DNA from: Acidovorax sp. 107
GTDB lineage: Bacteria > Pseudomonadota > Gammaproteobacteria > Burkholderiales > Burkholderiaceae_C
Length of the DNA: 64,000 nt
Direction: 5' to 3'
Assembly (NCBI RefSeq): GCF_003058055.1
Contig: NZ_QBTZ01000001.1
Span: 312,501-376,500, forward strand
Positions 11,229 through 52,956 of this stretch are shown here, piece after piece (positions within the stretch are counted from its first letter, which is position 1; each line of letters begins with the position of its first letter). The position numbers were made by a program, and so were the translations under genes. The notes under the pieces are model-generated. The model was not told where the DNA came from, did not search any database, and saw only the letters and a list, made by a program, of their open reading frames with translations.

Positions 11229-11247
11229 GCCGCCCCACCAGCAACAA

Positions 11248-12126: not shown

Positions 12127-12621
12127 ATGGCTACCAAACTCGTCATCGGCAAGTCTGCCCCCAAGTCTTTCCCCATGAAGGTCGAAGTGCCGACGCCCCA
12201 CGGACCTTGTGAGATCAACTTCGAAGCCAAGTACATGTCCTCCACGGAGTGGGCGAAGCTGCGCGAAGAACACGCGGAGGCGACCAGCAAGGCAGTCCAG
12301 GAGCTGTTCGACGCCGCAAAGCTAGAAGCAACCCGGGACCACACGCTGGCCGCCCAAAACAGTCCAAAGGTGGCGACCACCGAAGAAGAGCGAGAGAAGG
12401 AAATCCTGGCGCTGATGAAACCGGTGAAGAGCAGCGAACTGGAGTCGCTGAAGGCCAAGTTCACCGGTGAACTGATCTTCAAGATCGTGATGGGCTGGGA
12501 TCTGGACGACCCCCTCTCCGTTGCCAGTCTCACCGAAATGTGCGACCAATACGCTGGATCGGCCGAAGCGGTGTTCAGGACTTACAACGAGACGCGCGAG
12601 GGAACCCGCACAAAAAACTAA
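12127..12621 (+). CDS. Tail assembly chaperone G
   Basis: The 164-residue protein (MATKLVIGKSAPKSFPMKVE...) is the G-type tail chaperone: acidic, helical and placed between tail tube and tape measure. It would coat the tape measure with G-T during tail assembly. Its last codons are ACA AAA AAC TAA, a slippery A AAA AAC site directly before the stop, so a fraction of ribosomes make the longer G-T form. AAGAAAG precedes the ATG. Confidence 0.85.
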   Translation: MATKLVIGKSAPKSFPMKVEVPTPHGPCEINFEAKYMSSTEWAKLREEHAEATSKAVQELFDAAKLEATRDHTLAAQNSPKVATTEEEREKEILALMKPVKSSELESLKAKFTGELIFKIVMGWDLDDPLSVASLTEMCDQYAGSAEAVFRTYNETREGTRTKN

Positions 12622-12941
12622 AGGACATCGGGCGGGCCATCTACGAGAAACCGCCCGATGCCAAGAAGCTGGCGGTCTGGGGATTGAAGCCCTCGGACTA
12701 CCCAGACAAGATCGTAGAAATTTGGCCGGAACATTTTGATGCCTACCGGTCCTTCGTGGCTGTGTCCACGCAATGGCGGGTAGGCGGAATGGGCGGTGCT
12801 CCTGGGCTGGACTACCAGGCCGTCTTTGCCACGCTGGCCAGCATGCATCGCGGCAAGTCGGATGCAGAGCGGGACGCCATCTTTGCTGACCTGCAGCTGA
12901 TTGAGCGCGCGGCACTGGAAGAGATGAACCGGACGGACTGA
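12127..12941 (+). CDS. Tail assembly chaperone G-T (-1 frameshift fusion)
   Basis: A -1 shift at 12612-12618 joins the first 164 residues of G to 107 residues in the overlapping frame, giving about 271 residues. The T part (LKDIGRAIYEKP... through EEMNRTD) resembles DUF1799, the usual T domain, and contains GGMGGAPGLDY. No usable start codon precedes the T frame; the ATG at 12540 lies inside G and lacks a good binding site. In lambda the T part contacts the tail tube protein while G binds the tape measure. Confidence 0.85.
12612..12660 (+). promoter_or_regulatory. Programmed -1 ribosomal frameshift signal
   Basis: The heptamer A AAA AAC (12612-12618) is in the correct G frame, followed after 7 bases by a perfect 10-bp stem: CATCGGGCGG (12626-12635) with CCGCCCGATG (12651-12660), loop 15 bases. 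This is the canonical arrangement for -1 frameshifting, and the G stop codon TAA lies in the spacer. Confidence 0.9.
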
Positions 12942-12975
12942 TTCGCTACCATGTGGGCTTCTACATGGAGGGGAT

Positions 12976-13266
12976 ATGGAAATCTTCTTGGGTTGGCTGG
13001 TCTGCTCAATCGTCATCGGCGTTATCGCTAGCTCGCGCGGTCGCAGTGGATTCGCCTGGTTCTTGATCGCCGCGCTGCTGTCGCCGCTGATTGGGTTGAT
13101 TCTGGTACTCGTGTTTCCGAAACTGGGCCAAGCTGCTGCTGCAGTGGATGAGACGGGGCAGAAGATCACAGCCGATTCGCATGTCCGGTGCCCGGACTGC
13201 CGGGAACTTGTGCGCAAGGACGCACGAAAGGGAAAGCACTGCGGGACCGCCCTGATCCCTCAGTGA
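12976..13266 (+). CDS. Small membrane protein with Cys cluster, probable moron
   Basis: The 96-residue protein has two hydrophobic segments (about residues 2-20 and 25-48) and a cytoplasmic C-terminus with CPDC (about 73-76) and a later Cys (about 88), like a partial zinc ribbon. A good GGAGGGG binding site precedes the ATG. It sits between the tail chaperones and tape measure, followed by two terminators, the placement of a non-structural cargo gene. It may act at the host inner membrane, for example in superinfection exclusion; that is inference. Confidence 0.6.
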   Translation: MEIFLGWLVCSIVIGVIASSRGRSGFAWFLIAALLSPLIGLILVLVFPKLGQAAAAVDETGQKITADSHVRCPDCRELVRKDARKGKHCGTALIPQ

Positions 13267-13283
13267 GCAAGTAGACACATCAC

Positions 13284-13305
13284 AAACCCGCTTCGGCGGG
13301 TTTTT
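13284..13305 (+). terminator. UUCG terminator after membrane gene
   Basis: AACCCGC (13285-13291), loop TTCG, GCGGGTT (13296-13302) and a T run. Classic rho-independent form. Confidence 0.85.
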
Positions 13306-13312
13306 CAATTGA

Positions 13313-13344
13313 AGGCCTCGCGGCTCATGTCGCGAGGCCTTTTT
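13313..13344 (+). terminator. Second terminator before tape measure
   Basis: GGCCTCGCG (13314-13322) pairs with CGCGAGGCC (13331-13339), then five T and CTTT. A perfect 9-bp stem only 14 bases before the tape measure start. Confidence 0.85.
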
Positions 13345-13358
13345 CTTTGGGCGCTCGC

Positions 13359-38005: not shown

Positions 38006-38839
38006 TCAGCGATCAGCCAGCACCGCCTGGTTGGTCATGGCCTCGCAGATGGCGCGGATCTGCGGGCGCATGAGCCGGGCCACCTCGTCGCGCCGGTGCG
38101 ATTCGAGCCTTCCTGAAATGGCGGCCACGCTGATGGCGGCGATGGGATTGTCCGGCGGAAACGCAATGCCAATGGCGGCTGTGCCCGGCGTGACCACGCT
38201 GTCCAGAAACGCGTAACCCTTCTCGCGCCCTACCTTGATCGCTTCGCGCAGGTAGGGGGCTGTGACGAATCCGTACTTCTCGTACTTGGGTGCATTGGCT
38301 TCGATGATGGACTCTGCCTCGTCCGGCGGCAGGGCGCACAAGATGGCCAGCCCGCCCGCACCGACGCCCAGCGGGCGGCGAATGCCCACATCCAGCGCCA
38401 ATGACTTGATGGGGTAGTCGCCCAGTGCGCGGTGGGTGCATACCGCCTCCAGCCCGCTGCGTTCGCTCAGGTAGATGGTGTCCTGCGTGACTTCGGCCAG
38501 TTTCTGCAGCGCACCGTCACACAGTTCCGATAGCCGGTAGCGTGGCCGCGCGAGCAGGCCCAGCTCGTACAGCAAGGGGCCGAGGTAGTACTTGCGCGTG
38601 TGCGTATCCCGGTTCAGCAGGCCCTCGGCTTCCAACCGGTGGAGCATGCGAAAGCAGGTCGATTGCGGCAGACCGCTGGTGGTGGCGATCTCGCCGATGC
38701 GCATGCCGCCTTTTCCACGAGACGCCACGATACGGAGCATCTGCACCACGCGCTCAATGCTCTGGGTGCCAGTTTTTGAATTTCCACTATGTGGCGGTTC
38801 TTTTGTCTCAAAGGGGACTGTTGTAGTGTTTTTATTCAT
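38006..38839 (-). CDS. IclR-family regulator of the adjacent aconitase/ABC operon
   Basis: About 277 residues: an N-terminal winged helix-turn-helix (about residues 27-90, SIERVVQMLRIVAS, SGLPQSTCFRMLHRLEAEG) and a C-terminal GAF-like effector domain (about 100-270) with GVGAGGLAILCALP and FPPDNPIAAISVAAISGR. It is divergent from the operon starting at 38975 and should bind the shared intergenic region, where three identical or near-identical palindromes lie. GTG 38863 is an alternative start. The effector is probably a pathway acid. Confidence 0.88.
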   Translation of the reverse strand: MNKNTTTVPFETKEPPHSGNSKTGTQSIERVVQMLRIVASRGKGGMRIGEIATTSGLPQSTCFRMLHRLEAEGLLNRDTHTRKYYLGPLLYELGLLARPRYRLSELCDGALQKLAEVTQDTIYLSERSGLEAVCTHRALGDYPIKSLALDVGIRRPLGVGAGGLAILCALPPDEAESIIEANAPKYEKYGFVTAPYLREAIKVGREKGYAFLDSVVTPGTAAIGIAFPPDNPIAAISVAAISGRLESHRRDEVARLMRPQIRAICEAMTNQAVLADR

Positions 38840-38956
38840 ATTGTGTTTGTAGTTTGTATCCACATGGTGGGCAATATAGGGTTTACCCAGGCAGTTGAAC
38901 TGGCGTTTGATTTTTTAATAAGTGATCAAACGATTTGTTCAACTTCCACATAGTGG
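38784..38956. promoter_or_regulatory. Three IclR-type operator palindromes
   Basis: The 11-bp palindrome CCACATAGTGG occurs at 38946-38956; its exact reverse complement CCACTATGTGG at 38784-38794 (within the IclR start region); and the one-mismatch form CCACATGGTGG at 38860-38870. A further inverted repeat GTTTGAT/ATCAAAC lies at 38905-38931. Spacing of the sites is 76 and 86 bases. They are good candidates for autoregulation and operon control. Confidence 0.65.
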
Positions 38957-38974
38957 ATAACTGGGTAAAGCCGC

Positions 38975-40255
38975 ATGTCTTACACGATGACTGAAAAGAT
39001 CCTCGCCCGGGTTGCAGGGGTGCCTGCCGTCAGGGCGGGCGACGAGATCCTGGCGCGGCCGGATTTCGTGATTGCCTACGACTTTCCGGGCTACACCGAT
39101 GTGTTCTTCAAGGAGGCCAAGGAGGAGTTCGGTGTGGACAAGGTGCCAAGCCCTGAGCGCTTTGTGCTGTTCATCGACCACATGGTCCCGGCTGCTGCCC
39201 CCAAAGAGGAAGAACTCCACAAGATCACCCGTGCCTGGGGCAAGGAGCAAGGCGTGCCCGTGCATGAGCGCGAGGGCATCGGCCACCAGGTGTCGGCCGA
39301 GCTGGGTTACGCCACGCCGGGTGCCTTTGCAGTGCACTTTGACGGGCATGTGAGCCAGCTGGGCGCGTTTGGTACCCTGGCGATGGGCGCCCGCAAGAGC
39401 GTGCTGGAGACCTTTGTCTCCGAGCGCATGGCGCTCGTGGTGCCCGGCACGGTCAAGATCGAAGTCACCGGTACGGTGCAGCCCGGCGTGATGGCGCGGG
39501 ACATCTTCCACCACCTGGTGCGGGTGATGGGGCCTTCCTCCTGCCGCTTCAAGGTGGTGGAGCTGTGCGGCCCTGTGATTGACGCCATGAGCATCGAAGG
39601 CCGCCAGACGATCTGCGGCCAGGCCATGTTCTTGGGCGCGACGACGATGCTGATCGCCCCCGATGCCAAGACGCTCGAATATGCCAAGGGCCGCGCCAAG
39701 ATCGCCCTGGACCCGGTTTACCCCGATGCCGACGCGCACTACGACCGCGTGGTGACGGTGGATGTGAGCAACCTGGCCCCCATCGTGGTGGCACCACCCA
39801 GCCCCGCCAACACGCGGGACCTGACCGAATACGCGGGCCTGGAAGTGCACATGGGGTATCTGGGCAGCTGTGCCAGCGGCCGGCTGGAGGATCTGCGCGT
39901 TGCAGCGCAGGTGCTCAAGGGCCGCAAGATCAAGCCGGGCTTCCAGCTGCATGTGGTGCCCACCTCGCAGGCCATCATGTCGCAGGCCGCCAGCGAAGGC
40001 CTGATCTCGACCCTGGTAGATGCCGGTGCGTTCATCAGCTCGTCGAGCTGCGACTACTGCTATGGCCGCATTGCCACCATGACGGATGGTCAGCGCGCTG
40101 TCTCCACCGGCACGCTCAACACGCCCGGTCGCATGGGCAGTGCCGATTCTGAAATCTTCATCTGCAACGCCGCCGTGGTGGCTGCATCGGCCCTGGAAGG
40201 CTGCATCACCGACCCCCGGCCTTACCTCTCCAACACCGAAGGGAGTGCAGCATGA
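38975..40255 (+). CDS. Aconitase-family hydro-lyase, large subunit (LeuC-like)
   Basis: The 426-residue protein is a LeuC/homoaconitase-like [4Fe-4S] dehydratase. Cluster ligands are recognisable in GSCASGRLEDLR (about residue 299) and SSSCDYCYG (about 359 and 362). FIDHMVP and GIGHQVSAE correspond to family motifs, but the canonical DSHT is changed to DGHVSQLGAFG. It pairs with the small subunit that overlaps its end. With the lyase and importer downstream, a substituted malate/maleate substrate is likely rather than leucine synthesis. Confidence 0.85.
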   Translation: MSYTMTEKILARVAGVPAVRAGDEILARPDFVIAYDFPGYTDVFFKEAKEEFGVDKVPSPERFVLFIDHMVPAAAPKEEELHKITRAWGKEQGVPVHEREGIGHQVSAELGYATPGAFAVHFDGHVSQLGAFGTLAMGARKSVLETFVSERMALVVPGTVKIEVTGTVQPGVMARDIFHHLVRVMGPSSCRFKVVELCGPVIDAMSIEGRQTICGQAMFLGATTMLIAPDAKTLEYAKGRAKIALDPVYPDADAHYDRVVTVDVSNLAPIVVAPPSPANTRDLTEYAGLEVHMGYLGSCASGRLEDLRVAAQVLKGRKIKPGFQLHVVPTSQAIMSQAASEGLISTLVDAGAFISSSSCDYCYGRIATMTDGQRAVSTGTLNTPGRMGSADSEIFICNAAVVAASALEGCITDPRPYLSNTEGSAA

Positions 40256-40791
40256 CTCTGCCCACCTTGCACGGCCGCGCGGCCTGGGTCTTTACGGAAG
40301 ACGACTACGACATCGACCTGATCGTCGGCATCAAGAACATCAAGATCACCGACATCAACGAGCTGGCAGCGGTCACCATGACCAGCTACGACCCTGACTT
40401 TGCCCAGTCCGTCAACAAAGGCGATCTGCTGGTAGGCGGGCAGAACTTTGGCTATGGCCACCCGCATTACCCGGCCATGCGCGCCATGCGCCACCTGGGC
40501 GTGGCAGGCGTGATTGCCGAGTCGTTCTCTCCCGGTTTCTTCCGGGGCGAGATCAGCATGGGGTTCCCGCTGATCACCTGCCCGGGCATCCGCGCGGCGA
40601 CGCAGCGGTGGGACACCCTGCAGGTGGATTGGGAGCGCGGCGTGGTGGTTAACCAGCGCACGGGGCAGACACTGCCGTTCGAGCCCTGGTCGTCCACCGA
40701 GCGCGCCACCATCGAGGCGGGTGGGTTCACGCCCTATCTCAAGGCCCGGCTGGCACGCGAGCGTGCTGCCGCGGCCGCGGCGGCGGCGTGA
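40252..40791 (+). CDS. Aconitase-family hydro-lyase, small subunit (LeuD-like), altered motif
   Basis: The 179-residue swivel-domain subunit resembles LeuD. The usual GSSREH loop, which holds a catalytic serine and substrate-binding arginine, is replaced: GGQNFGYGHPHYPAM (residues 62-76). The next segment GVAGVIAESFSPGFFRG (about 83-99) fits the family. Loss of the Ser/Arg implies a changed substrate or mechanism. The C-terminus has eight alanines. ATGA overlap with the large subunit shows coupled translation. Confidence 0.83.
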   Translation: MTLPTLHGRAAWVFTEDDYDIDLIVGIKNIKITDINELAAVTMTSYDPDFAQSVNKGDLLVGGQNFGYGHPHYPAMRAMRHLGVAGVIAESFSPGFFRGEISMGFPLITCPGIRAATQRWDTLQVDWERGVVVNQRTGQTLPFEPWSSTERATIEAGGFTPYLKARLARERAAAAAAAA

Positions 40792-40807
40792 CGGGCAGGG
40801 GCACACC

Positions 40808-41671
40808 ATGTTGCAGATGATTGTCAGCGGCGTCGCCCTGGGCGCCATCTACGGGCTCATCGCCCTGGGCATCGTGATGGTGTTCAAGGCGACGGGCATC
40901 CTCAACTTCGCGCATGGCGAGGCAGCCATGCTCTCGGCCTTCGTGGCCTACACGCTGTTCAAGCTGGGCCTGCCGTTGTGGGCTGTGGTGCCGCTCACGC
41001 TGCTCTTTGGCGCGGCGCTGGGCATGGCGATCGAGCGGTTCATCATTCGCCGCTTCATTGGCAAGGCGCTGCTGTCGTCTGCGATCTGCACGCTGGGCCT
41101 GTTCCTGGTGTTTGGCGATCTGGCCATCTGGGTGTGGGGCAAGGACACGCAGGAGCTGCCCAGCATCTTCCCGGCCGCGCCCATCGACATCGGGGGCGTG
41201 ATCGTTTCGGGCATTGACCTGGGCATCGTGGCCGTGTGCGCCACGCTGGCCGCCCTGCTGTTTGCGTTCTTCCGCTTCACGCGCCTCGGTATTGCCATGC
41301 AGGCGACGATGGAAAACCCCACGGCTGCGCGCCTCATGGGCATTCCGATCAAGCGCATCTATGCGTTGGCCTGGGCGCTGTCGCACGTGATCGCAGCCAC
41401 GGCGGGCTTGCTGATTGCGCCGCTGACTTTCGTGCACTTTTCGATGATGCAGCACGCACTTCACTTCGCGTTCGCTGCTGCCGTGCTGGGTGGCATTGGC
41501 AGCATGCCAGGCGCGCTCTTGGGCGGCGTGATCATTGGTGTGTCGTCGAACCTCACTGGCGCCTATGTGTCCTCGGCCTGGAAGGACGCCGTGCCCTTCA
41601 TCGTGATGCTGGTCATCCTGATCCTGCGTCCCCACGGTTTGCTGGCCCGCGCCCAGATCAAGAAGGTCTAA
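40808..41671 (+). CDS. Branched-chain-type ABC transporter permease (LivH)
   Basis: A 287-residue inner-membrane permease with about eight hydrophobic segments and LivH features: VSGVALGAIYGLIALG and KATGILNFAHGEAAML at the start, NPTAARLMGIPIKRIY (the coupling loop) near residue 175 and GGIGSMPGALLGG near 230. It pairs with LivM and the two ATPases that follow. In this operon the cargo is probably an organic acid rather than leucine. ATG 40808 follows GGGGCACACC. Confidence 0.9.
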   Translation: MLQMIVSGVALGAIYGLIALGIVMVFKATGILNFAHGEAAMLSAFVAYTLFKLGLPLWAVVPLTLLFGAALGMAIERFIIRRFIGKALLSSAICTLGLFLVFGDLAIWVWGKDTQELPSIFPAAPIDIGGVIVSGIDLGIVAVCATLAALLFAFFRFTRLGIAMQATMENPTAARLMGIPIKRIYALAWALSHVIAATAGLLIAPLTFVHFSMMQHALHFAFAAAVLGGIGSMPGALLGGVIIGVSSNLTGAYVSSAWKDAVPFIVMLVILILRPHGLLARAQIKKV

Positions 41672-41680
41672 GGAGCCGCC

Positions 41681-42652
41681 ATGACCAAAGTCTTTGACAC
41701 ATACTCCTGGCTCGGCCCAGTGCTGTTTGTGCTGGCCTTCGTGCTGGCGCCGCTGGTGCCCGGTGGTTACGTGCTGTACATCTTCACGCTCGTCATCATC
41801 TACACGCTGGCTTCGTTCGGCACCAACATCCTCACGGGCTACACCAACCTGATCTCCATGGCGGGTGCCGTGTTCTTCGGCATCGGTGCCTATGGCTCGG
41901 CCATCCTCACCACGCACTTTGGCGTGCCGCTGGTGCTGTCGATGTTCATTGCCGCCAGCATCGCCACCGTGGTGGGCTTGCTGCTGGCGCTGCCCGTGCT
42001 GCGTCTGGAAGAGGTTTTTCTGGCCATCGCCACGCTGGGGTTTGTGATGATCTCGGTAGAGATCGCCAAGTCCAGCGGCGACATGTCGGGCGGCGAGAAC
42101 GGCATGGGCGCGCCTGGCCCCACCTTGTTTGGCTGGGCGCTGGACGAGCGCGCGTACCACGTGTTCACTGCCGTCGTGCTGGCGGGCGCGCTATGGGTGG
42201 CGCGCAACCTGGCGCGCAGCCGGTTTGGGCGGGGTTTTCTGGCCATCAAAGGCAGTGAGACAGCTGCTCGGGCGCTGGGCCTGAACACCACGGCGCTCAA
42301 ACTGGTGGCGTTTGGCGTGTGTGCCTTCTACACCGGCTTGTCGGGCGCGTTGTATGCACCACTGGTGCGCTTTATCGACCCCTCGCTGTTCAGCATCATG
42401 GTGTCGATCAGCTTCGTCTCGATGGTCATCGTGGGCGGGCTGGGCTCCATCCTGGGCTCGGTGCTGGGTGCAGTGTTCGTCATTGGCGCACCGCAGTTGC
42501 TCACCTACCTGGGGTTCGATCAGTTCCAGCGCGCGCTGTATGGCGTGGCCATGATCCTGGCGCTGATGTTCCTGCCCGACGGGTTGGCCAGCCTCTTCAA
42601 GCGCAAGCGTCTGCCCGGTGCGGATGCAGCGCAGAGCGGGGGTGTGCGATGA
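41681..42652 (+). CDS. Branched-chain-type ABC transporter permease (LivM)
   Basis: The 323-residue second permease has LivM landmarks: GYTNLISMAGAVFFGIGAY (about residues 54-72), GGENGMGAPGP (about 134-144), FLAIKGSETAARALGL (coupling loop, about 186-201) and GGLGSILGSVLGA. AAGGAG lies close before its ATG. The stop overlaps the LivG-type ATPase start (ATGA). Confidence 0.9.
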   Translation: MTKVFDTYSWLGPVLFVLAFVLAPLVPGGYVLYIFTLVIIYTLASFGTNILTGYTNLISMAGAVFFGIGAYGSAILTTHFGVPLVLSMFIAASIATVVGLLLALPVLRLEEVFLAIATLGFVMISVEIAKSSGDMSGGENGMGAPGPTLFGWALDERAYHVFTAVVLAGALWVARNLARSRFGRGFLAIKGSETAARALGLNTTALKLVAFGVCAFYTGLSGALYAPLVRFIDPSLFSIMVSISFVSMVIVGGLGSILGSVLGAVFVIGAPQLLTYLGFDQFQRALYGVAMILALMFLPDGLASLFKRKRLPGADAAQSGGVR

Positions 42653-43506
42653 GAGTGATGGACGAAAAGACCTTGCCGTCGCAGGCGCCTGTGGCGGCAG
42701 CACCAGGCCAGGCAAAGCCTTTGCTCAGCATCCAGGGCGTGCGCATGGCGTTCGGCGGCATCGTGGCCGTGCAGGACGTGAGCTTTGACGTGATGCCCGG
42801 CACAGTGCATGCGCTCATCGGCCCCAACGGCGCTGGCAAGACGACGATGCTCAACTGCATCAGCCGCTTCTACACGCCCCAGCAGGGCGCTATGCGCTAC
42901 CGCACGGCTTCTGGCGACGTAGAACTGCTGGGCTGCAAAGCCCATCAGGTGGCGCGTCTGGGCATCGCCCGCACGTTCCAGAACCTGGAGCTTTTTGCGG
43001 AACTCACGGTATTCGACAACGTGCTGATTGCACGGTCGATGGCGATGCGCGCCACGCTGGTGGAGGCCCTGCTGAGCCTGCCACGCCAGCGCCGAGAGGA
43101 GCGAGAAGAACGGGAGCGTGTGGAAGCGGTGCTTGAAAAGCTCAGCCTGCGAGTCCATGCGCATGCGCTGGTGCGCGACCTGCCCTATGGCACGCAAAAG
43201 CTGGTGGAGCTGGCCCGCGCCATGGCGCTGGAGCCGCGCCTGATGTTGCTGGACGAGCCCGCTGCCGGCATGAACAACCGCGAGATCGATGCCCTTGGTG
43301 AAACGCTCAAGCGGCTGCAGGCCAGCACGCAAGCGACGCTGCTGCTCATCGAACACAGCATGCCGCTGGTGATGTCCATCTCGGACACGATCACCGTGAT
43401 GCACAACGGCGCGTTTCTGGCACAGGGCACACCCAGAGAAATCGAAAACCATCCCGCCGTGGTCGAGGCGTATCTCGGAGGAGGCAAGAGTGGCAAACGG
43501 CGTTGA
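42649..43506 (+). CDS. ABC transporter ATPase (LivG type)
   Basis: The 285-residue ATPase has Walker A GPNGAGKTT (about residues 60-68), Q-loop in ARTFQNLELF, a LivG-type signature LPYGTQKLVELARAM in place of LSGGQ, Walker B LMLLDEPAAG and the H-loop EHSMPL. It energises the importer together with LivF. Start ATG 42649 lies in the previous stop; its C-terminus overlaps the next gene by 17 bases. Confidence 0.9.
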   Translation: MRVMDEKTLPSQAPVAAAPGQAKPLLSIQGVRMAFGGIVAVQDVSFDVMPGTVHALIGPNGAGKTTMLNCISRFYTPQQGAMRYRTASGDVELLGCKAHQVARLGIARTFQNLELFAELTVFDNVLIARSMAMRATLVEALLSLPRQRREEREERERVEAVLEKLSLRVHAHALVRDLPYGTQKLVELARAMALEPRLMLLDEPAAGMNNREIDALGETLKRLQASTQATLLLIEHSMPLVMSISDTITVMHNGAFLAQGTPREIENHPAVVEAYLGGGKSGKRR

Positions 43507-44230
43507 GACATCCAGTGCACCGGCACTGCTGAGCGTGGACAACCTGAGCGCGGGCTACGGCAAGATCCGCGCGCTGCACGGCGTGAGCCTGCGTGTGCCG
43601 CAGGCCCGCATCGTGTGCGTGCTGGGCGCCAATGGGGCTGGCAAGACCACGTTGATGCGTGCGCTCTCGGGCCTGTTGCCGGTCAGCGAGGGTCAGGCCA
43701 TTTTTGATGGCCAGTCCATCGCCAACGTGCCTGCCGAAGCACTGGTGCGCCGCGGTATTGCCCATGTGCCGCAAGGCCGCATGGTGTTTGCGCAGCTCAC
43801 CGTACGCGACAACCTGGTGCTGGGCGGCTACACCCGCCCGGCCGCCGAGGTGCGCGACGACATCGACCGTGTGCTGGGCTATTTCCCCCGGCTCAAGGAG
43901 CGCATCACCTCGCGCGCCGGCACCTTGTCGGGCGGCGAGCAGCAGATGCTGGCCATTGCCCGGGGCCTGCTGGCCAAGCCGCGCCTGCTGATGCTGGACG
44001 AGCCCTCGATGGGCGTGGCCCCCATCCTGAAGGACGCCATCTTCGAAACGCTGCGCGACATCCGCGATCGCGAAAACCTCACGCTGCTCATCGTGGAACA
44101 AGACGCCGACATTGCGCTCGACATTTCTGACGAGGGCTACGTCATCGAGACCGGCCGCGTGGTGATGCAAGGCCCGGCCGCCGAGCTGGCGGGCAATGAG
44201 GACATCCGCCGCGCCTACCTGGGCGGCTGA
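43490..44230 (+). CDS. ABC transporter ATPase (LivF type)
   Basis: The 246-residue ATPase has Walker A GANGAGKTT (about residues 44-52), signature LSGGEQQMLAIARGL (about 144-158), Walker B LLMLDEPSMG and a C-terminal LGG that is common in LivF. A GTG start with GGAGGAGG just upstream overlaps the LivG gene. Confidence 0.9.
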   Translation: MANGVETSSAPALLSVDNLSAGYGKIRALHGVSLRVPQARIVCVLGANGAGKTTLMRALSGLLPVSEGQAIFDGQSIANVPAEALVRRGIAHVPQGRMVFAQLTVRDNLVLGGYTRPAAEVRDDIDRVLGYFPRLKERITSRAGTLSGGEQQMLAIARGLLAKPRLLMLDEPSMGVAPILKDAIFETLRDIRDRENLTLLIVEQDADIALDISDEGYVIETGRVVMQGPAAELAGNEDIRRAYLGG

Positions 44231-44298
44231 TCGCCAACCCAGACCCCCAAGTTCCTTTCCCATGTTCCCTTCCCACCGATAAACACAGGAGACAAACC

Positions 44299-45510
44299 AT
44301 GAGTCACTTCATTCCACGCCGTACGCTGCTGGCTGCCGCTGCAGCAAGCTGCCTGATGGCGACCACGCTGGGCGTGCAGGCTTTCGAGAACAAGGACGAA
44401 GGTGTGCTGACCCAGGAGATCGTTCTGGGCTCCTCGCAACCGCTGTCGGGCACGCTGGCCTACATGGGCAAGGCCGTGGACGAAGGCATGCGCACGTACT
44501 TCGACATGGTCAACGAGCAAGGCGGCGTCAACGGCCGCAAGATCAAGCTCATTACCTATGACGACGAGCTCAAGCCCGCCAAGTCGGTGGCCAATGCGAA
44601 GCTGCTGGTCGAGCGCGACAAGGTGTTTGCCATGGTGGGCAACATCGGCCACGCCACCAACATCAGTGCCTACAAATACAGCTCCACCAAGAAGGTGCCC
44701 ACCATTGGCGCGCTGAGCATCTCGGACCTGACCTCCAACCCGCCGCGCGACCTGCTGTACGTGCTGCCATCGCCCCAATCCACCGAGACGGCGGCCTACA
44801 TCGACCATGCGGTCGAGGTGCTCAAGGCCAAGAAGATCGCGATGCTTTACCAGAACGACGGCTGGGGCAAGCCAGCTTACGACATTGCCGTCCAGCGCAT
44901 GGAAAAGCACGGCCTGAAGCTGGTGGAGGCGCAGACCTTCGAGCGGTTTGCGACCGACCTCACCTCGCAGGTGTTCAAGCTCAAGCAGGCCGAGCCCGAT
45001 GTAGTCATCGTCTACGCGCTGGGTCAGGAGGCCGTGCAGTTCTTCCGCGGTGCCGAAAAACTGGGCTGGAAGCCTACGGTGTTCGGTGCGGGCGGGCTCA
45101 ACGACCCCAAATTCATCGAGCTGCTGGGCAAGACGCAGTCCAAGCTGTACGTGGCTTCGTACTACGACGCCGTGGACGGCAACAACCCGGCCATCCAGTC
45201 GTTCTTCCAGCGCTACGCCAAGCTGTACCCCAAGTCGGCGCCCACGTCGATGGCGCTGATGGGCTATTCGTCAGCCGCTGTGACGGTCGAGGCTTTGAAG
45301 CGTGCCGGTGCCGAGCCCAGCCGTGCCAAGGTGGTGGCCGAGCTGGATGGCATGAAGGACTTTGACCAGAAGATTGGCCCCAAGATCACCTTCCAGCCTA
45401 TCAGTGCTGGTGGCTATGCGCGGCGCGGCCAGACAGGCGTGGCGCTGATGGAGCTCAAGGACCAGAAGTTCGTGTCCATGGGCAGCTATATCGACCCTGT
45501 GAAGCGCTGA
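44299..45510 (+). CDS. Periplasmic substrate-binding protein (LivK type)
   Basis: The 403-residue protein has a Sec signal peptide (about residues 1-28, ending VQA) and the type I periplasmic-binding fold of Liv proteins: IVLGSSQPLSGTLAYMGKAV, then KIKLITYDDELKPAKSVANA and YGS-type central segments. It would capture the imported compound for the LivHMGF complex. AGGAGAC lies nine bases before ATG. A 68-base gap separates it from the ATPase genes. Confidence 0.9.
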   Translation: MSHFIPRRTLLAAAAASCLMATTLGVQAFENKDEGVLTQEIVLGSSQPLSGTLAYMGKAVDEGMRTYFDMVNEQGGVNGRKIKLITYDDELKPAKSVANAKLLVERDKVFAMVGNIGHATNISAYKYSSTKKVPTIGALSISDLTSNPPRDLLYVLPSPQSTETAAYIDHAVEVLKAKKIAMLYQNDGWGKPAYDIAVQRMEKHGLKLVEAQTFERFATDLTSQVFKLKQAEPDVVIVYALGQEAVQFFRGAEKLGWKPTVFGAGGLNDPKFIELLGKTQSKLYVASYYDAVDGNNPAIQSFFQRYAKLYPKSAPTSMALMGYSSAAVTVEALKRAGAEPSRAKVVAELDGMKDFDQKIGPKITFQPISAGGYARRGQTGVALMELKDQKFVSMGSYIDPVKR

Positions 45511-45520
45511 GGACCTGACC

Positions 45521-46396
45521 ATGACCAAGAGCTTGCGACAACAGCTGCGCGCGCGCATCCAGTCAGGCCCGACCTTCTGGATGGCGGGCGCGCAAGACGC
45601 CCTGTCGGCCCTGCTGGTGGACCAGTCGGACTTTGACGGCATCTTCACAACGGGCTTCGGCATCTCGGCATCGCTGCTGGGGCAGCCGGACATGGAGGTC
45701 TACACACTCAGCGAGAACGTGGGTGTGGTGCACCACATCGTCAACGTGGTGAGGAAGCCCGTGTTTGCTGATGCCGACACCGGCTACGGCAACGTGATCA
45801 ACGTGGCCCGCACGGTGCGCGAGTTTGAGAAGGCCGGTGTGGCGGCCATCTCGATCGAAGACCAGATCAGCCCCAAGCGCTGCCCGGCGGCCGCGGCCGT
45901 GACGCCCGTGGTGTCCATCCCCGACGCCGTGGCGCGCATCAAGGCGGCGGTGGATGCCCGTCGGGACCCGGACCTCCTGATCGTGGCCCGCACCGATGTG
46001 GCCGACCCCGAGGAGGCCATTGAGCGTGCCGTGCGCTTTGCCGAGGCTGGTGCGGACCTGATCCAGCCCATCTCGCGCACCTTCAAGGGCTATGAAGACT
46101 TGGTGCGCTTGCGCGATGCCTCGGGCCGCCGACTGTCGCTGCAGCTCATGCAGGGGCTCTGGATGTCGCGTCTGACGCGCTCGCAGATCGAAGAGGTGGC
46201 AGCCTTTGCCACCTACCCGGTGGTGACGCTGATGAGCACGGTGCATGCCTTGCAAAAGAACCTGGCCACGCTGTCGGCGCGCCGCACGGGCGATGTAGAC
46301 GGTTTGCCCTGTGGACAGACCAGCATGGCCGACTTCAAGGAAGTGATTGGCTGGAAGGCCATGGAAGAGCGCCAGGCGCACTACGAAGCCGGTTGA
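45521..46396 (+). CDS. Isocitrate lyase/PEP mutase-family lyase
   Basis: The 291-residue TIM-barrel enzyme has metal-binding D84/D86 in ADADTGYGN and a catalytic-loop cysteine C121 in PKRCP, a feature of lyases such as isocitrate, 2-methylisocitrate and dimethylmalate lyase and absent in PEP mutase. The loop after Cys is unusual (AAAAVTPVV in place of GH...). In context it may cleave the hydrated product into pyruvate or glyoxylate plus a short acid. It starts 10 bases after the binding protein and ends before a strong terminator. Confidence 0.83.
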   Translation: MTKSLRQQLRARIQSGPTFWMAGAQDALSALLVDQSDFDGIFTTGFGISASLLGQPDMEVYTLSENVGVVHHIVNVVRKPVFADADTGYGNVINVARTVREFEKAGVAAISIEDQISPKRCPAAAAVTPVVSIPDAVARIKAAVDARRDPDLLIVARTDVADPEEAIERAVRFAEAGADLIQPISRTFKGYEDLVRLRDASGRRLSLQLMQGLWMSRLTRSQIEEVAAFATYPVVTLMSTVHALQKNLATLSARRTGDVDGLPCGQTSMADFKEVIGWKAMEERQAHYEAG

Positions 46397-46438
46397 ATTG
46401 CACGCGCCCGAGTGCGGCGCAGTGTTCATGAAAAGTAA

Positions 46439-46472
46439 GGCCAGCACCCCGGGTGGGTGCTGGCCTTTTTTT
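46439..46472 (+). terminator. Strong terminator ending the aconitase/ABC/lyase operon
   Basis: GGCCAGCACCC (46439-46449) pairs perfectly with GGGTGCTGGCC (46455-46465), followed by seven T. Confidence 0.93.
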
Positions 46473-47528: not shown

Positions 47529-48329
47529 CTACCCCCTTGGCGCTCCCATCATGCGCGAAATGGTCCGCGCCGCACTCAGCAGCGCGGGCAACAGGCTCTC
47601 CTGCATCATGGCCGCACTCGTACGGTTGGCCTGACCGCTGATGTTGAGCGCCGCCACCGTCTGCCCCGTGCGGTTGGTCAGCGGCGCGGCAATCGAAATC
47701 AATCCCTCTTCCAGCTCCTGGTTCACTAGGCACCAGCCTTGCTGCCGCGCCTGGCGGATGTGAGCCAGCAGCGCCTCCATATCCGTGGTGGTGTGCGCGG
47801 TAAAGCGCTGCAGGGGGTGGCCCTGCAGCCGGGCCTGCAGTTCGTCGTCTGGCAACCCTGCCAGCAGCATGCGGCCCATGGAGGTCCAGCACGCGGGCAG
47901 GCGCGAGCCCACGCCCAGCGTGGTGCGCATGATCTTGTGCGTGGGCACGCGCAGCACGTAAACGATGTCCAGGCCGTCGAGCACGGCGGCCGATGACGAC
48001 TCGCGCACCTCTTCCACCAGGTCTTCCATCACCGGCTCGGCCAGGTTCCAGATGGGCAGCGAGGACAGGTACGCAAACCCCAGGTCCAGGATGCGCGGGC
48101 TCAGGCGAAACAGCTTGCCGTCCGTCTCCACATAGCCCAGCGTCTGCAGCGTGAGCAGGATGCGGCGCGCGCCTGCGCGGGTCAGGCCGGTTTGCGCCGC
48201 CACTTCGCTCAAGGTCTGCTGCGGTGTGGCCGCGCTGAACGAGCGGATCACCTCCAGCCCGCGCGCGAATGACTGCACATAGCTGTCGCTCGGTTTGGGG
48301 TCTTTGGCTTCAGGGCTTTGGGAATTCAT
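47529..48329 (-). CDS. pcaR: IclR-family regulator PcaR
   Basis: The 266-residue protein belongs to the PcaR/PcaU/PobR branch: N-terminal segment SYVQSFARGLEVIRSFS (about residues 16-32), helix-turn-helix SEVAAQTGLTRAGARRILLTL (split around 41-61), then effector domain with SMGRMLLAGLP and ISIAAPLTNRTG. It is divergent from pcaI and likely senses beta-ketoadipate (or protocatechuate) to control the operon. The shared region holds an elaborate repeat set. Confidence 0.88.
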   Translation of the reverse strand: MNSQSPEAKDPKPSDSYVQSFARGLEVIRSFSAATPQQTLSEVAAQTGLTRAGARRILLTLQTLGYVETDGKLFRLSPRILDLGFAYLSSLPIWNLAEPVMEDLVEEVRESSSAAVLDGLDIVYVLRVPTHKIMRTTLGVGSRLPACWTSMGRMLLAGLPDDELQARLQGHPLQRFTAHTTTDMEALLAHIRQARQQGWCLVNQELEEGLISIAAPLTNRTGQTVAALNISGQANRTSAAMMQESLLPALLSAARTISRMMGAPRG

Positions 48330-48354
48330 ACGTATGCCAACTATAATTCTTTAA

Positions 48355-48383
48355 GCGAACATTTGTTCTATATACGAACAAAT
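48355..48383. promoter_or_regulatory. PcaR operator, three-repeat arrangement
   Basis: ATTTGTTC (48361-48368) and GAACAAAT (48376-48383) form a perfect 8-bp inverted repeat spaced by 7, and GCGAACATTT (48355-48364) adds a third, direct copy. The set resembles Acinetobacter PcaU/PobR operators with three repeats. TATAAT at 48342-48347 could be the -10 for pcaIJF. Confidence 0.7.
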
Positions 48384-48429
48384 TTCGGAGAGACGAGACA
48401 GCAAACAAGCAAACCAAGAAAGCGTTGCA

Positions 48430-49131
48430 ATGATCAACAAACTGGCGGACTCGGTGGCCCAGGCCCTTGCGGGGGTGAAGGATGGTGCCACGGTGTTGAT
48501 AGGCGGGTTCGGCACGGCCGGCATTCCGGGCGAGCTGATCGACGGCCTCATCGCCCAGGGTGCGCGTGACCTCACTGTGGTCAACAACAACGCTGGCAAT
48601 GCCGACCAGGGCCTGGCCGCGCTGCTCAAGGCCGGGCAGGTGCGCAAGATCATCTGCAGCTTTCCGCGCCAGGTCGATAGCTATGTGTTCGACGAGCTGT
48701 ATCGCAGCGGCAAGCTGGAGCTGGAACTCGTGCCCCAGGGCAATCTGGCCGAGCGCCTGCGCGCGGCGGGTGCGGGCATCGGCGCCTTCTTCTGCCCCAC
48801 GGCGCATGGCACCGAGCTGGCTGCTGGCAAGGAAACGCGCGAGATCAACGGCAAACACTACGTGCTGGAGTACCCCATCCATGGCGACGTGGCCCTGATC
48901 AAAGCCGAAAAGGGCGACCGCTGGGGCAACCTCACCTACCGCATGTCGGCGCGCAACTTTGGCCCCGTGATGGCCACCGCCGCCAAGACCACGATTGCCA
49001 CCGTGCACGAGGTGGTCACGCTCGGCGCGCTGGACCCGGAGGCCATCGTAACCCCCGGCATCTACGTGACCCATGTCGTGAAGATCGACCGCACAGCCAC
49101 GCAGGCGGGCGGATTCAAGAAATCCGCGTGA
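48430..49131 (+). CDS. pcaI: 3-oxoadipate CoA-transferase subunit A
   Basis: The 233-residue alpha subunit transfers CoA from succinyl-CoA to 3-oxoadipate with PcaJ. Family features are GGFGTAGIPGELI (about residues 25-37), VVNNNAGN, and GAFFCPTAHGTEL with the CoA-binding region, then MSARNFGPVMA. Related transferases act on acetoacetate, but the neighbouring pcaF and pcaR support 3-oxoadipate. It leads the operon opposite pcaR. Confidence 0.9.
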   Translation: MINKLADSVAQALAGVKDGATVLIGGFGTAGIPGELIDGLIAQGARDLTVVNNNAGNADQGLAALLKAGQVRKIICSFPRQVDSYVFDELYRSGKLELELVPQGNLAERLRAAGAGIGAFFCPTAHGTELAAGKETREINGKHYVLEYPIHGDVALIKAEKGDRWGNLTYRMSARNFGPVMATAAKTTIATVHEVVTLGALDPEAIVTPGIYVTHVVKIDRTATQAGGFKKSA

Positions 49132-49154
49132 TATCGGCCGCAAGCGCAGAAAGA

Positions 49155-49811
49155 ATGAGCATGAGCAGCTATCAAAAGCGTAGTAAAGACGAGTTGGCGA
49201 AACGCGTGGCACAAGACATCCACGACGGCGCCTACGTCAACCTGGGCATCGGCCAACCCACCCTGGTGGCCAACCACATTCCTGCCGGCCGCGAGGTCAT
49301 CCTGCAAAGCGAAAACGGCATCCTGGGCATGGGGCCGGCGCCCGCTGCGGGGCTGGAGGATTACGACCTCATCAACGCGGGCAAGCAGCCCGTGACCTTG
49401 CTGCCCGGCGGTGCGTACTTCCACCACGCCGACAGCTTCGGGATGATGCGCGGCGGCCACCTGGACATCTGCGTGCTGGGCGCGTTCCAGGTGTCGGCCA
49501 CGGGCGACCTGGCCAACTGGAGCACGGGCGAGCCCGGCGCCATTCCCGCCGTGGGCGGGGCGATGGACCTGGCCATCGGCGCCAAGCAGACCTGGGTGAT
49601 GATGGACCTGCTGACCAAGCAGGGCGCGAGCAAGATCGTCACGCAATGCACCTACCCGCTCACCGGTGTCGCGTGCGTGAAGCGCATCTACACCGATCTG
49701 TGCACACTGGCCTGCACGTCCACAGGGCTGCAGCTCATCGACACCGTGCCCGACCTGTCACTGGCCGAGCTGGAGCGGCTGGTGGGCCTGCCCATCCGCC
49801 CCGCAGCCTGA
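49155..49811 (+). CDS. pcaJ: 3-oxoadipate CoA-transferase subunit B
   Basis: The 218-residue beta subunit carries the catalytic glutamate in SENGILGMGP (E53) and the typical VNLGIGQPT. It works with PcaI. AGAAAGA precedes two near-adjacent ATGs (49155 and 49161); either is possible, and GTG 49128 overlaps the pcaI end but adds no recognisable sequence. Confidence 0.9.
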   Translation: MSMSSYQKRSKDELAKRVAQDIHDGAYVNLGIGQPTLVANHIPAGREVILQSENGILGMGPAPAAGLEDYDLINAGKQPVTLLPGGAYFHHADSFGMMRGGHLDICVLGAFQVSATGDLANWSTGEPGAIPAVGGAMDLAIGAKQTWVMMDLLTKQGASKIVTQCTYPLTGVACVKRIYTDLCTLACTSTGLQLIDTVPDLSLAELERLVGLPIRPAA

Positions 49812-49841
49812 ATCCACCCCCCGAAACGAGGAGACAAAACC

Positions 49842-51056
49842 ATGAGCCAATCACAACGCCAAGCCTTCATCTGCGACGCCATCCGCACCCCCTTTGGCCG
49901 CTACGGCGGCGCGCTCTCCAGCGTGCGCACCGACGACCTGGGTGCCATCCCCATCAAGGCGCTGATGGAGCGCAATCCCGGCGTGGACTGGGCGGCGGTG
50001 ACCGACGTGCTCTACGGCTGCGCCAACCAGGCCGGTGAAGACAACCGCAACGTGGCCCACATGAGCAGCCTGCTCGCAGGCCTGCCGATGGACGTGCCCG
50101 GCGCCACCATCAACCGCTTGTGCGGTTCGGGCCTGGATGCCGTGGGCACCGCCGCACGCGCCATCAAGGCGGGCGAGGCCGGCCTGATGATTGCGGGCGG
50201 CGTGGAAAGCATGAGCCGCGCGCCCTTCGTCATGCCCAAGGCCGAGTCGGCCTTCAGCCGCAACAACGCGGTGTATGACACGACCATCGGCTGGCGCTTC
50301 ATCAACAAGCTGATGAAGGAAAAGTACGGTGTGGACTCCATGCCCGAAACCGCCGAAAACGTGGCGACGGACTTCAAGATTGAGCGCGAAGCCCAGGACC
50401 AGATGGCCCTGCGCAGCCAGCTCAACGCCGTGGCTGCGATCAAGGCCGGCCACCTGGCGCGCGAGATCGTGCCCGTGCACATCGCGCAGAAGAAGGGCGA
50501 CGCCATCATCGTCAGCCAGGACGAACACCCGCGGGAGACCAGCCTGGAAGCGCTGGCCAAGCTCAAGGGCGTGGTGCGGCCCGATGGCACGGTGACGGCG
50601 GGCAACGCCAGTGGTGTGAACGACGGCGCCTGCGCGCTGCTGCTGGCCGATGAAGCCAACGCCGCCAAGTACGGCCTCAAGCCCCGCGCCCGCGTGGTGG
50701 GCATGGCCGTGGCCGGTGTGGCGCCGCGCATCATGGGCTTTGGCCCCACGCCCGCGACGCTGAAGGTGCTGGCGCAGACAGGCCTGACCATCGACCACAT
50801 GGATGTGATCGAACTCAACGAAGCCTTTGCCGCGCAAGGCCTTGCCGTGCTGCGCGCGCTGGGCGTCAAGGACGACGACGCGCGCGTGAACGCCTGGGGC
50901 GGCGCCATTGCACTGGGCCACCCACTGGGCGCCAGCGGCGCGCGCCTGGTCACCACCGCCGTCAACCGCCTGCACGAACACGCCGGAAAGTACGCGCTCT
51001 GCACCATGTGCATCGGCGTGGGCCAGGGCATTGCCGTGATTCTGGAGCGCGTGTGA
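49842..51056 (+). CDS. pcaF: 3-oxoadipyl-CoA thiolase
   Basis: The 404-residue thiolase cleaves 3-oxoadipyl-CoA to succinyl-CoA and acetyl-CoA, the last step of the beta-ketoadipate pathway. Catalytic residues are C94 in NRLCGSG, H360 in ALGHPLGASG and C390 in CTMCIGVGQG. AGGAGAC lies before ATG. It is 30 bases after pcaJ and its stop overlaps the GTG start of the SDR gene. Confidence 0.92.
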   Translation: MSQSQRQAFICDAIRTPFGRYGGALSSVRTDDLGAIPIKALMERNPGVDWAAVTDVLYGCANQAGEDNRNVAHMSSLLAGLPMDVPGATINRLCGSGLDAVGTAARAIKAGEAGLMIAGGVESMSRAPFVMPKAESAFSRNNAVYDTTIGWRFINKLMKEKYGVDSMPETAENVATDFKIEREAQDQMALRSQLNAVAAIKAGHLAREIVPVHIAQKKGDAIIVSQDEHPRETSLEALAKLKGVVRPDGTVTAGNASGVNDGACALLLADEANAAKYGLKPRARVVGMAVAGVAPRIMGFGPTPATLKVLAQTGLTIDHMDVIELNEAFAAQGLAVLRALGVKDDDARVNAWGGAIALGHPLGASGARLVTTAVNRLHEHAGKYALCTMCIGVGQGIAVILERV

Positions 51057-51796
51057 CCGAGATCGAGCGCAACCCCACACCAGTCACCGTCATCACGGGT
51101 GCCAGCAACGGCATCGGCCGCGCGATTGCCGAAGCCGTGCTGGCCCAGGGTCACGCCGTGGTCAACCTGGACTACGTGCTGCCCAGCTGGAGCCACCCGC
51201 AACTCACCTCGTACCAGGGCGACCTGACCGCCGAAGCATCAACCCGTGAACGCGCAGCCGAGATTGCGGCCAAGCACAACGTGACGGCGCTGGTGAACAA
51301 CGCGGGCGCCACGCGCCCCGGCACCATCGACACTGCCACGACTGCGCAGCTCGACGACGTGGTGGGCCTGCACCTGCGTGCGCCCATGCTGCTGGTGCAA
51401 GCATTCTTGCCCACGCTGCGCGCCTGCGGGCAGGGCCGTATCGTCAACATGTCGTCGCGTGCGGCGCTGGGCAAGGGCGAGCGCATCGTCTACTCGGCCA
51501 CCAAGGCCGGAATGATCGGCATGACGCGCACGCTGGCCATGGAGCTGGGGCGTGACGGCATCACCGTCAACGCGATTGGCCCCGGGCCGATTGCCACTGA
51601 ATTGTTCCGCCAGAGCAACCCGGACGGTGCACCGCAGACCCAGCGCATCCTGAACAGCATCGCCGTAGGCCGCATGGGCACGCCCGATGACGTGGCGCGC
51701 GCGGCGCTGTTTTTCCTCTCGTCCGACAACGGCTTCGTGACCGGGCAGGTGTTGTACGTGTGCGGCGGCACCACGCTGGGAGTGGCGCCTGTTTAG
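51053..51796 (+). CDS. Short-chain dehydrogenase/reductase in pca operon
   Basis: The 247-residue enzyme has TGASNGIG (about residues 15-22), NNAG (about 81), Ser-Tyr-Lys with YSATK (about 147-151), and a C-terminal GGTTLG. It should be an NAD(P)-dependent oxidoreductase. GTG overlaps the pcaF stop, so it is translationally coupled to the pathway, but no SDR step is needed in the standard route; it may act on an aromatic or dicarboxylic precursor. Confidence 0.83.
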   Translation: MTEIERNPTPVTVITGASNGIGRAIAEAVLAQGHAVVNLDYVLPSWSHPQLTSYQGDLTAEASTRERAAEIAAKHNVTALVNNAGATRPGTIDTATTAQLDDVVGLHLRAPMLLVQAFLPTLRACGQGRIVNMSSRAALGKGERIVYSATKAGMIGMTRTLAMELGRDGITVNAIGPGPIATELFRQSNPDGAPQTQRILNSIAVGRMGTPDDVARAALFFLSSDNGFVTGQVLYVCGGTTLGVAPV

Positions 51797-51942
51797 CAAT
51801 CTGAACTGATCTTCCCCGCCGCCCCGCAAGGGGCGCACCCCTGTTCTCACCCGGAGGCCTCGGCGCCCGGTTGAGGCCACGGCGCGGCCGGATGTCGCGT
51901 CCGTGAGACCCATTTCATCCACCTTCTTGAAGGAGACAAACC

Positions 51943-52956
51943 ATGACCCGTTCCATCCACATCACCCGCCGCTTCGCGCTGTCGGCTGCCGCCTGCGCTG
52001 GCATCGCCGCCATCGCTGGTGCTGGCTTGCTGGGCAGCAGCGCTGCACTGGCCCAGGCCTACCCGAGCAAGCCTGTCACCATCGTCGTCCCGTTTGCCGC
52101 AGGCGGCACCACCGACATCCTGGCCCGCATCATCGGCCAGGCGCTGACCACCGAGCTGGGCCAGTCGGTCATCGTGGACAACCGCGCGGGCGCGGGCGGC
52201 AACATCGGCGGCGCCATGGCGTCCAAGGCACCGGCGGATGGCTACACCCTGTTCATGGGCACGGTGGGCACCCACGCCATCAACGCCAGCCTGTACAAGA
52301 AGATGCCGTTCGACCCCATCAAGGACTTCGCGCCGCTGACGCGCGTGGCCAATGTGCCCAACCTGCTGGTGGCCAACCCCGCGCAGCCCTATAAGACGGT
52401 GAAGGAACTGATCGCCTACGCCAAGGCCAACCCCGGTAAGGTCAACTTCGGCTCGTCGGGCAACGGCAGCTCCATCCACCTGTCGGGCGAGCTGTTCAAG
52501 AGCCTCGCCAAGGTGGATATGGTGCACGTGCCCTACAAGGGCAGCGCCCCGGCCGTGACCGACCTGCTGGGCAACCAGATCGGCATCATGTTCGACAACA
52601 TGCCCTCGGCCATCCAGCATGTGCGCAGCGGCAAGCTGGTGCCCATTGCCGTGACCACCGCCAAGCGCTCGCCCGAGCTGCCCAATGTGCCCACCATCGC
52701 CGAAGCCGGCGTGCCTGGCTATGAGGCCACGTCGTGGTTTGGCATGTTTGCGCCTGCGGGCACGCCTGCACCGGTGCTGGCCAAACTCAACAGCGCACTG
52801 GTCAAGGTACTGAACCAGGCCGACGTGAAGAAGAAGATCAACGAACAGGGCGCTGAAACCTACAGCGAAACGCCCGAGCAGTTTGCTGCCTTCATCCAGG
52901 CCGAGTCGGTGAAGTGGGGCAAGGTCGTCAAGGAGTCGGGAGCGAGTTTGGACTGA
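51943..52956 (+). CDS. Bug-family (TctC-like) periplasmic binding protein
   Basis: The 337-residue protein has a long signal peptide (about residues 1-38, ending ALAQA) and the Bug/TctC hallmarks YPSKPVTIVVPFAAGG (about 40-55), DNRAGAGGNIGG and VPTIAEAGVPGYEATSWFG. Bug proteins bind carboxylates. No membrane permease genes are next to it, typical of the expanded orphan Bugs of this family. AGGAGAC precedes the ATG; its promoter region includes 146 bases after the SDR gene. Confidence 0.88.
   Translation: MTRSIHITRRFALSAAACAGIAAIAGAGLLGSSAALAQAYPSKPVTIVVPFAAGGTTDILARIIGQALTTELGQSVIVDNRAGAGGNIGGAMASKAPADGYTLFMGTVGTHAINASLYKKMPFDPIKDFAPLTRVANVPNLLVANPAQPYKTVKELIAYAKANPGKVNFGSSGNGSSIHLSGELFKSLAKVDMVHVPYKGSAPAVTDLLGNQIGIMFDNMPSAIQHVRSGKLVPIAVTTAKRSPELPNVPTIAEAGVPGYEATSWFGMFAPAGTPAPVLAKLNSALVKVLNQADVKKKINEQGAETYSETPEQFAAFIQAESVKWGKVVKESGASLD

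Follow-up and report, generated by a model that had tools for sequence, protein, structure and literature searches.

An aconitase-type heterodimer and a lyase of the isocitrate lyase (ICL) superfamily are known to work together in nicotinate fermentation, where DmdAB and Dml are encoded in one catabolic operon. Here we describe an operon of similar outline from Acidovorax sp. 107, located in a 64,000-nt window (the whole stretch of DNA analyzed, C1 312501-376500 of the 5.1 Mb genome; coordinates are positions in this window unless given as C1). It encodes a predicted two-subunit Fe-S hydro-lyase, an importer and a predicted lyase of the ICL/phosphoenolpyruvate (PEP) mutase family. The pairing of heterodimer and lyase in a catabolic operon is shared with DmdAB/Dml; the Acidovorax operon differs in that motifs of both enzymes are replaced relative to canonical relatives, an importer lies inside it and it is probably under IclR control.

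The isopropylmalate/citramalate isomerase (PDB 4nqy, large subunit; 3vba, small subunit) has the same two-subunit build as the Acidovorax enzyme, with full-length similarity (E 2.5e-68 and 4.6e-30), and shares its cluster cysteines and Asp/His acid-base residues, whereas SSRE is changed to HPHY, NRN to TLN, DSH to DGH, Glu262 to Phe and Asn258 to Gly or Cys in the subfamily described here. The lyase has the Mg ligands, the Lys-x-Cys catalytic segment and the ARTD motif in common with the PrpB/ICL superfamily, but it is 34-38% identical to the PrpB-like protein of its own genome, the His after Cys-Gly is gone, and other residues stand in for the F-x-E Glu and the N-M-V Asn. In AcnX, another branch of the aconitase superfamily, the active site likewise departs from the canonical one. 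PMC8184944 states that a serine was proposed as the base in AtAcnX and that AcnX has <10% identity to other aconitases, and describes the base serine, along with the greater part of the active site, as common to all aconitases except AcnX. Unlike AcnX, the branch described here still shows clear identity in sequence and has kept the cluster cysteines, while no serine stands at the base site.

Altered active sites in a conserved operon

The operon genes (38975-46396) share a strand and, as read from open reading frames (ORFs), overlap or are separated by short gaps. An aconitase-superfamily large subunit (426 aa; 38975-40255, plus strand; PF00330, E 2e-63) is followed by the small subunit (179 aa; 40252-40791, plus), which scores slightly below the Pfam Aconitase_C cut-off (21.9 against 22.8). 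A hidden Markov model (HMM) scan found a complete HAAT-family importer, all on the plus strand: permeases of the LivH type (40808-41671; PF02653, 7e-43) and LivM type (41681-42652; PF02653), ATPases of the LivG type (42649-43506; NF008449, 265 bits, cut-off 362) and LivF type (43490-44230; NF008626, 256 bits, cut-off 441), and a LivK-type binding protein (44299-45510; Peripla_BP_6). The lyase (291 aa; 45521-46396, plus; PF13714, E 7e-40) comes last, ahead of an intrinsic terminator with a 13-pair hairpin and T tract (46437-46467, plus); two terminator-like sites were observed where 0.1 would be expected, one of them being this hairpin read on the minus strand. An IclR-family regulator (38006-38863, minus; PF01614/PF09339; start uncertain, 38863 or ~38749) is divergent from the operon. 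The first-pass annotation had proposed that one operon joins importer, two-subunit hydro-lyase and lyase, faces an IclR gene and ends in a terminator, and both ORFs and HMM scans bear this out, with every element present in the whole unit (38006-46472). The same gene order was found again in named genomes. Across the eight genes, ratios of nonsynonymous to synonymous substitution rates were 0.035-0.20 against relatives L067, L018 and L023 (L-numbers label the compared loci and relatives) and 0.24-0.50 against the more distant L043; such low values indicate that the arrangement is maintained and not due to chance.

The hydro-lyase was examined by aligning 50 family members with 10 canonical large and 8 canonical small comparators, using mitochondrial aconitase numbering. 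D100, H101, H147, D165, H167, C358, C421, C424, R452 and D568 are unchanged in 50/50, the three cysteines being the cluster ligands (299, 359 and 362 of the window's large subunit). Ten of 20 classical aconitase active-site positions are altered in every member: Q72 to Tyr, S166 to Gly, N258 to Gly (46) or Cys (4), E262 to Phe, N446 to Thr (49) or Val (1), R447 to Leu, R580 to Lys, S642 to His, S643 to Pro and R644 to His. As motifs, DSHT has become DGHV, NRN has become TLN, Phe219 occupies the Glu262 site, and an HPHYP loop (small-subunit residues 70-74; 40459-40473, plus), found in 50/50 aligned loci, replaces the SSREH that holds the Ser642 base and the Arg644 site. Seven of these ten positions are sites that canonical comparators keep: S166, E262 and R447 are present in 10/10 large subunits and N258 in 9/10, while S642, S643 and R644 are present in 8/8 small subunits.

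In PMC8184944, Ser642 is given as the general base, a role is assigned to His101, Cys358, Cys421 and Cys424 are named as [4Fe-4S] ligands, and >15 of 20 active-site residues are said to be identical across non-AcnX aconitase subfamilies. The enzyme described here groups with non-AcnX aconitases by sequence (the PF00330 match) and by its three cluster cysteines, but not by its active site, with His at position 642 and half of the 20 residues changed. The HPHYP loop extends beyond the aligned loci: it was present in 118 of the 120 closest small subunits by regular expression, with one more missed by the expression and one reading HPHYQ, and in 120/120 relatives retrieved with a Rhodococcus protein, which are Actinomycetota where named. 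In a quick tree of large subunits, whose outer relations are unsure owing to long branches, the subfamily including Rhodococcus forms one clade on a long stem (SH-aLRT 99). The predicted hydro-lyase is a distinct subfamily of the aconitase superfamily.

The lyase shows a parallel pattern in an alignment of 48 family rows with three canonical comparators. It retains the Mg ligands D84 and D86, K119-R120-C121 and R157, and the Asp pair, Lys and catalytic Cys are present in 48/48 rows, as in lyases of the ICL/PEP-mutase group. The canonical KRCGH is replaced by KRCP, with Cys-Pro in place of Cys-Gly-His in 48/48 rows, and KRCP was found in 119/120 nearest lyases, one having failed to match the expression. 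A QPIS[RK]-like sequence stands where the canonical F-x-E segment has its Glu, and the N-M-V segment, including its Asn, is replaced. In the alignment, residues are lost at the product-acid site of methylisocitrate lyase. The AlphaFold2 model had a mean pLDDT of 86.3, falling below 50 in two stretches, residues 47-60 and residues 120-124, the latter being the catalytic loop. The best PDB matches of the lyase were a PEP mutase and methylisocitrate lyases. Against TIGR02317 (methylisocitrate lyase) the protein scored 159.4 bits, under the cut-off of 354.4. A role in phosphonate metabolism was rejected because the protein carries the lyase Cys at a site that is occupied by other residues in the aligned PEP mutase.

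Two further kinds of serine-less subunits were seen among the relatives. Five betaproteobacterial metagenome-assembled genomes (MAGs; L053, L054, L055, L057 and L063) carry another LeuCD-like group with ~30% identical large subunits, in which STA(A/T)NN replaces STSNRN; in the two small subunits aligned (L054 and L063) GPKMNGY replaces GSSREHA, and TctC matches lie near in L053 and L054. A third small-subunit type, with FGHHNHVEV, is encoded on Roseomonas plasmids (L100 6986-7525; L101 6971-7504) beside an aconitase-family large subunit, TctC and a flavin reductase; two-part fumarase genes are annotated on the opposite strand.

Distribution, importers and regulation

Among 55 large-subunit loci returned from genome contigs, 41 had at least 63% identity; these are mostly Comamonadaceae where named, and also come from Caballeronia, Sulfitobacter, Anderseniella and gammaproteobacterial MAGs. 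Plasmid relatives were found in Comamonas, Variovorax, Polaromonas and Azospirillum and, at 45%, in Rhodococcus opacus; among named records an Acidovorax MAG (L012) comes closest, its large subunit being 98% identical. In overlapping samples that each count the own genome, the locus occurs in 3/47 genomes of the genus and 14/250 of the family, a patchy, accessory distribution, and the counts of 4/300 in the order, 4/398 in the phylum and 1/369 in the class (the own genome only) speak against great breadth. We inspected 47 loci, namely the 41 contig loci and six from plasmids, with a single Actinomycetota genome context (L071, Rhodococcus). By script the small subunit adjoins the large one in 46/47, and in the 47th (L102) it is annotated. 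The lyase is near the hydro-lyase in 44/47, the exceptions being L032, where the contig ends, L046 and L102, and a homologous divergent IclR gene stands beside the core in 36/47. The dehydratase-lyase core is the constant part of the locus.

The first-pass annotation had regarded the coupling to a Liv importer as the distinctive feature, which the comparison does not support. A recognized importer gene is near the core in 45/47 loci, but its kind varies: orthologous Liv genes in 16/47, an orthologous TctC binding protein in 19/47, other Liv sets in four (L040, Caballeronia; L068 and L072, Azospirillum; L069, Variovorax PBL-E5) that are 27-47% identical to the window's where they match, flanking TRAP genes in three (L044, L047 and L049), other TctC genes in two (L046 and L102) and a following MFS transporter in Rhodococcus L071. 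In a plasmid collection, 3/748 records matching the LivK-type protein did so at >80% identity, all three with the core, and the other 745 were at <60%. Importers have been exchanged between lineages while the core stays, so that the core, not the importer, is the constant part and the Liv coupling is incidental.

Other neighbors of the core also vary. A lactonase-like MBL protein and a GlcD-like FAD oxidase are linked to it in L040, L068, L069 and L072; a fixed upstream pathway was excluded, this pair being confined to those four among the loci compared, and the own genome's best FAD-oxidase match by E-value is 29% identical. L046 (a Ramlibacter MAG) and L102 (a Polaromonas plasmid) each have an HPHYP-type hydro-lyase, a GlcD-like oxidase, a FAH-family protein and TctC; in L102, where the large subunit is unannotated, an IS6 transposase then follows and a citryl-CoA lyase gene is near. 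A conserved ~480-aa protein, 83% identical between L047 (2450-3883) and L049 (2750-4204), lies beside the TRAP genes near the core; it had no Pfam match at the thresholds used, and for L049 none in NCBIfam. On the Comamonas endophytica plasmid (L067 17317-18500) the livK match falls in two pieces with no gene annotated, and this copy may be interrupted.

The palindrome CCAC-N3-GTGG is probably the IclR operator. Three putative copies lie in the iclR-operon region (38784-38794, 38860-38870 and 38946-38956, the last 18 bases before the large-subunit start), and the whole window has 8 matches against 2.7 expected. It is exact in 35/53 intergenic regions, has one mismatch in 16 more and is absent in 2, while with mononucleotide shuffles the mean was 0.13 of 55 regions. 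In many loci the copy closest to the start of the large subunit is similarly placed, and several of these have a second copy ~86 bases upstream. The nearest NCBIfam model to the regulator is BhcR, at 77.5 bits against a cut-off of 350.

Downstream of the terminator, 47529-52956 holds a second IclR-family gene, 3-oxoadipate CoA-transferase-like and thiolase-like genes (names from ORF reading), an SDR gene and a TctC protein, a beta-ketoadipate locus by gene order. The pca-like genes (47529-51056) were rejected as part of the system, since only L012 has them among the loci compared. A run of short same-strand ORFs at ~485-24000, including a 1821-aa protein (13359-18824), resembles a prophage by gene layout only.

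Proposed function and alternatives

Taken together, the locus is probably a catabolic operon under IclR control that serves to break down a single imported organic acid. Uptake would fall to the HAAT-family importer, and the hydro-lyase would add, remove or move a hydroxyl next to a carboxylate, a step suggested by the superfamily and by the kept cluster cysteines and acid/base residues. The Mg-dependent, Cys-containing lyase, given its conserved Mg ligands and catalytic Cys, would then cut the C-C bond beside the hydroxyl-bearing carbon, releasing a smaller product together with a 2-oxo acid (pyruvate or glyoxylate). As no other enzymes are encoded in the minimal operon, the two steps should yield central metabolites. 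We propose more tentatively that the hydro-lyase represents a new functional branch, occurring in both Pseudomonadota and Actinomycetota under the mistaken name of 3-isopropylmalate dehydratase, which may use His for the serine base, may act on a substrate without a classically bound carboxylate on the proton-losing carbon and, with a co-adapted lyase, may effect a two-step acid cleavage. The kept cysteines and His/Asp residues argue that chemistry at an Fe-bound hydroxyl persists. With His at the Ser642 site of the hydro-lyase and carboxylate-site residues lost in both enzymes, the proton-bearing carbon probably does not carry the usual carboxylate bound in the usual manner.

Several observations count against this reading of the operon. 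L046 and L102 carry the hydro-lyase and a FAH-family protein with no lyase seen, so the lyase is not obligatory. The 50 aligned rows contain near-duplicates (e.g. L018/L019, L009/L033 and L011/L041). Q72, N446 and R580 vary among canonical comparators too and are weaker evidence. L050 and L051 have only an NMT1-type ABC system nearby on the opposite strand (scanned in L050).

Database names ('3-isopropylmalate dehydratase' and '3-isopropylmalate/(R)-2-methylmalate dehydratase small subunit') would make the two subunits LeuCD paralogues in leucine or citramalate metabolism, which we consider very improbable. Both subunits and the lyase fall below every listed NCBIfam cut-off, the large subunit at 363.4 against 385 for NF001614, 332.6 against 385.7 for TIGR01343 and 322.9 against 410.15 for TIGR02086; for the small subunit the margin is narrow, as 107.0 (window) and 106.0 (L069) fail the TIGR02087 cut-off of 108.95. 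The catalytic serine is absent, and the locus, which is accessory and patchy in occurrence, groups the genes with a lyase and importers. Elsewhere in the genome are a LeuC-like gene at C1 4.695 Mb, whose 480-aa frame has canonical motifs, and a PrpB-like gene beside an AcnD-like gene at C1 1.940-1.945 Mb, labels resting on similarity, motif and gene order and not on HMMs. A search of the own genome with the small subunit gave only the window gene and a paralogue, leaving no separate LeuD, though bacterial LeuD may be too distant for it. With that caveat, orthology to LeuCD and methylisocitrate lyase, which the first-pass annotation had named as fatal to its proposal, is excluded by the sub-cut-off scores and the LeuC-like and PrpB-like genes elsewhere. 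Breakdown of dimethylmaleate by a hydratase and dimethylmalate lyase, or of another 2,3-dialkylmaleate or citraconate, with the residue changes adjusting only substrate size, would draw on the same pair of enzyme superfamilies. Among NCBIfam models the small subunit matches LeuD/DmdB best, and the Rhodococcus relative passes the cut-off of that model (111.0); the PDB matches of the lyase include a 2,3-dimethylmalate lyase (3fa3); and TctC, TRAP and HAAT importers suit carboxylates. We nevertheless regard it as unlikely: a dialkylmaleate keeps both carboxylates, yet the carboxylate-site residues and catalytic serine are replaced, and 3fa3 is eighth, behind PEP mutase and methylisocitrate lyases. 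Moreover, a paralogous operon in the same genome (C1 1.810-1.825 Mb; L092, G000 C1:1808000-1827900, 1748-16727) encodes GntR, a binding protein with LivHMGF, TctC, DmdAB-like subunits, hydantoinase B and A, an isochorismatase-family protein, a flavocytochrome-type FAD protein and an ICL-family lyase. This set has intact GSSRE and KRCGH motifs and passes the cut-offs (NF001614 528.8, TIGR01343 408.2, TIGR02086 412.8 and TIGR02087 145.8). By motifs and family models it is the better DmdAB/Dml-like candidate; as a guess, it could degrade a maleimide- or lactam-like compound via a dialkylmaleate. The first-pass likeness to DmdAB/Dml thus holds at the level of superfamilies and gives way to this operon, with its own Liv importer and TctC, as the closer counterpart.

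Judging by the enzymes that accompany the core in other lineages, the compounds involved may be hydroxy or oxo acids and lactones, and a 4-hydroxy-2-oxo-dicarboxylate is our most specific, speculative guess at the substrate, made with low confidence. From it or a 4-methylene-2-oxo-dicarboxylate, the hydro-lyase would form HO-C(R)(COO-)-CH2-CO-COO- and the lyase, as a retro-aldolase, would release pyruvate and a second 2-oxo acid. Carboxylate-site residues are lost in both enzymes and a cation is found elsewhere: Lys31 at the Arg580 position in 50/50, although Lys stands there in one canonical small subunit too, and Arg or Lys in a P-[IV]-[ST]-[RK] segment of the lyase in the seven subfamily rows compared. 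FAH-family proteins act on 2-oxo acids, and those that replace the lyase in L046 and L102 have 2,4-didehydro-3-deoxy-L-rhamnonate hydrolase as top NCBIfam match, far under the cut-off; the GlcD-like oxidases and lactonase-like MBL proteins of other lineages also fit. We think this specific route quite unlikely, as it is drawn from residues and neighbors only, the common operon is without a fixed upstream enzyme, and no 2-oxo-acid hydratase of the aconitase superfamily is known to us. For the broader proposal of an imported acid cleaved in two steps, the original outline of importer, hydro-lyase and lyase stands; its substituted maleate or malate substrate is weakened by the serine and carboxylate sites replaced in 50/50 and the altered product-acid site of the lyase.

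A search of open PMC papers found no description of the operon or motif. Superfamily and operon logic were already known; what is new is a conserved pair of apparently re-tooled enzymes with an altered active-site set. The operon suggests a route, not known to us, by which some organic acid is degraded, and a sizeable group of '3-isopropylmalate dehydratase' database entries is suggested to be misnamed. As a widespread branch in two phyla with half of its site changed, this subfamily offers a test of the extent to which the chemistry of Fe-S hydro-lyases can be adapted.

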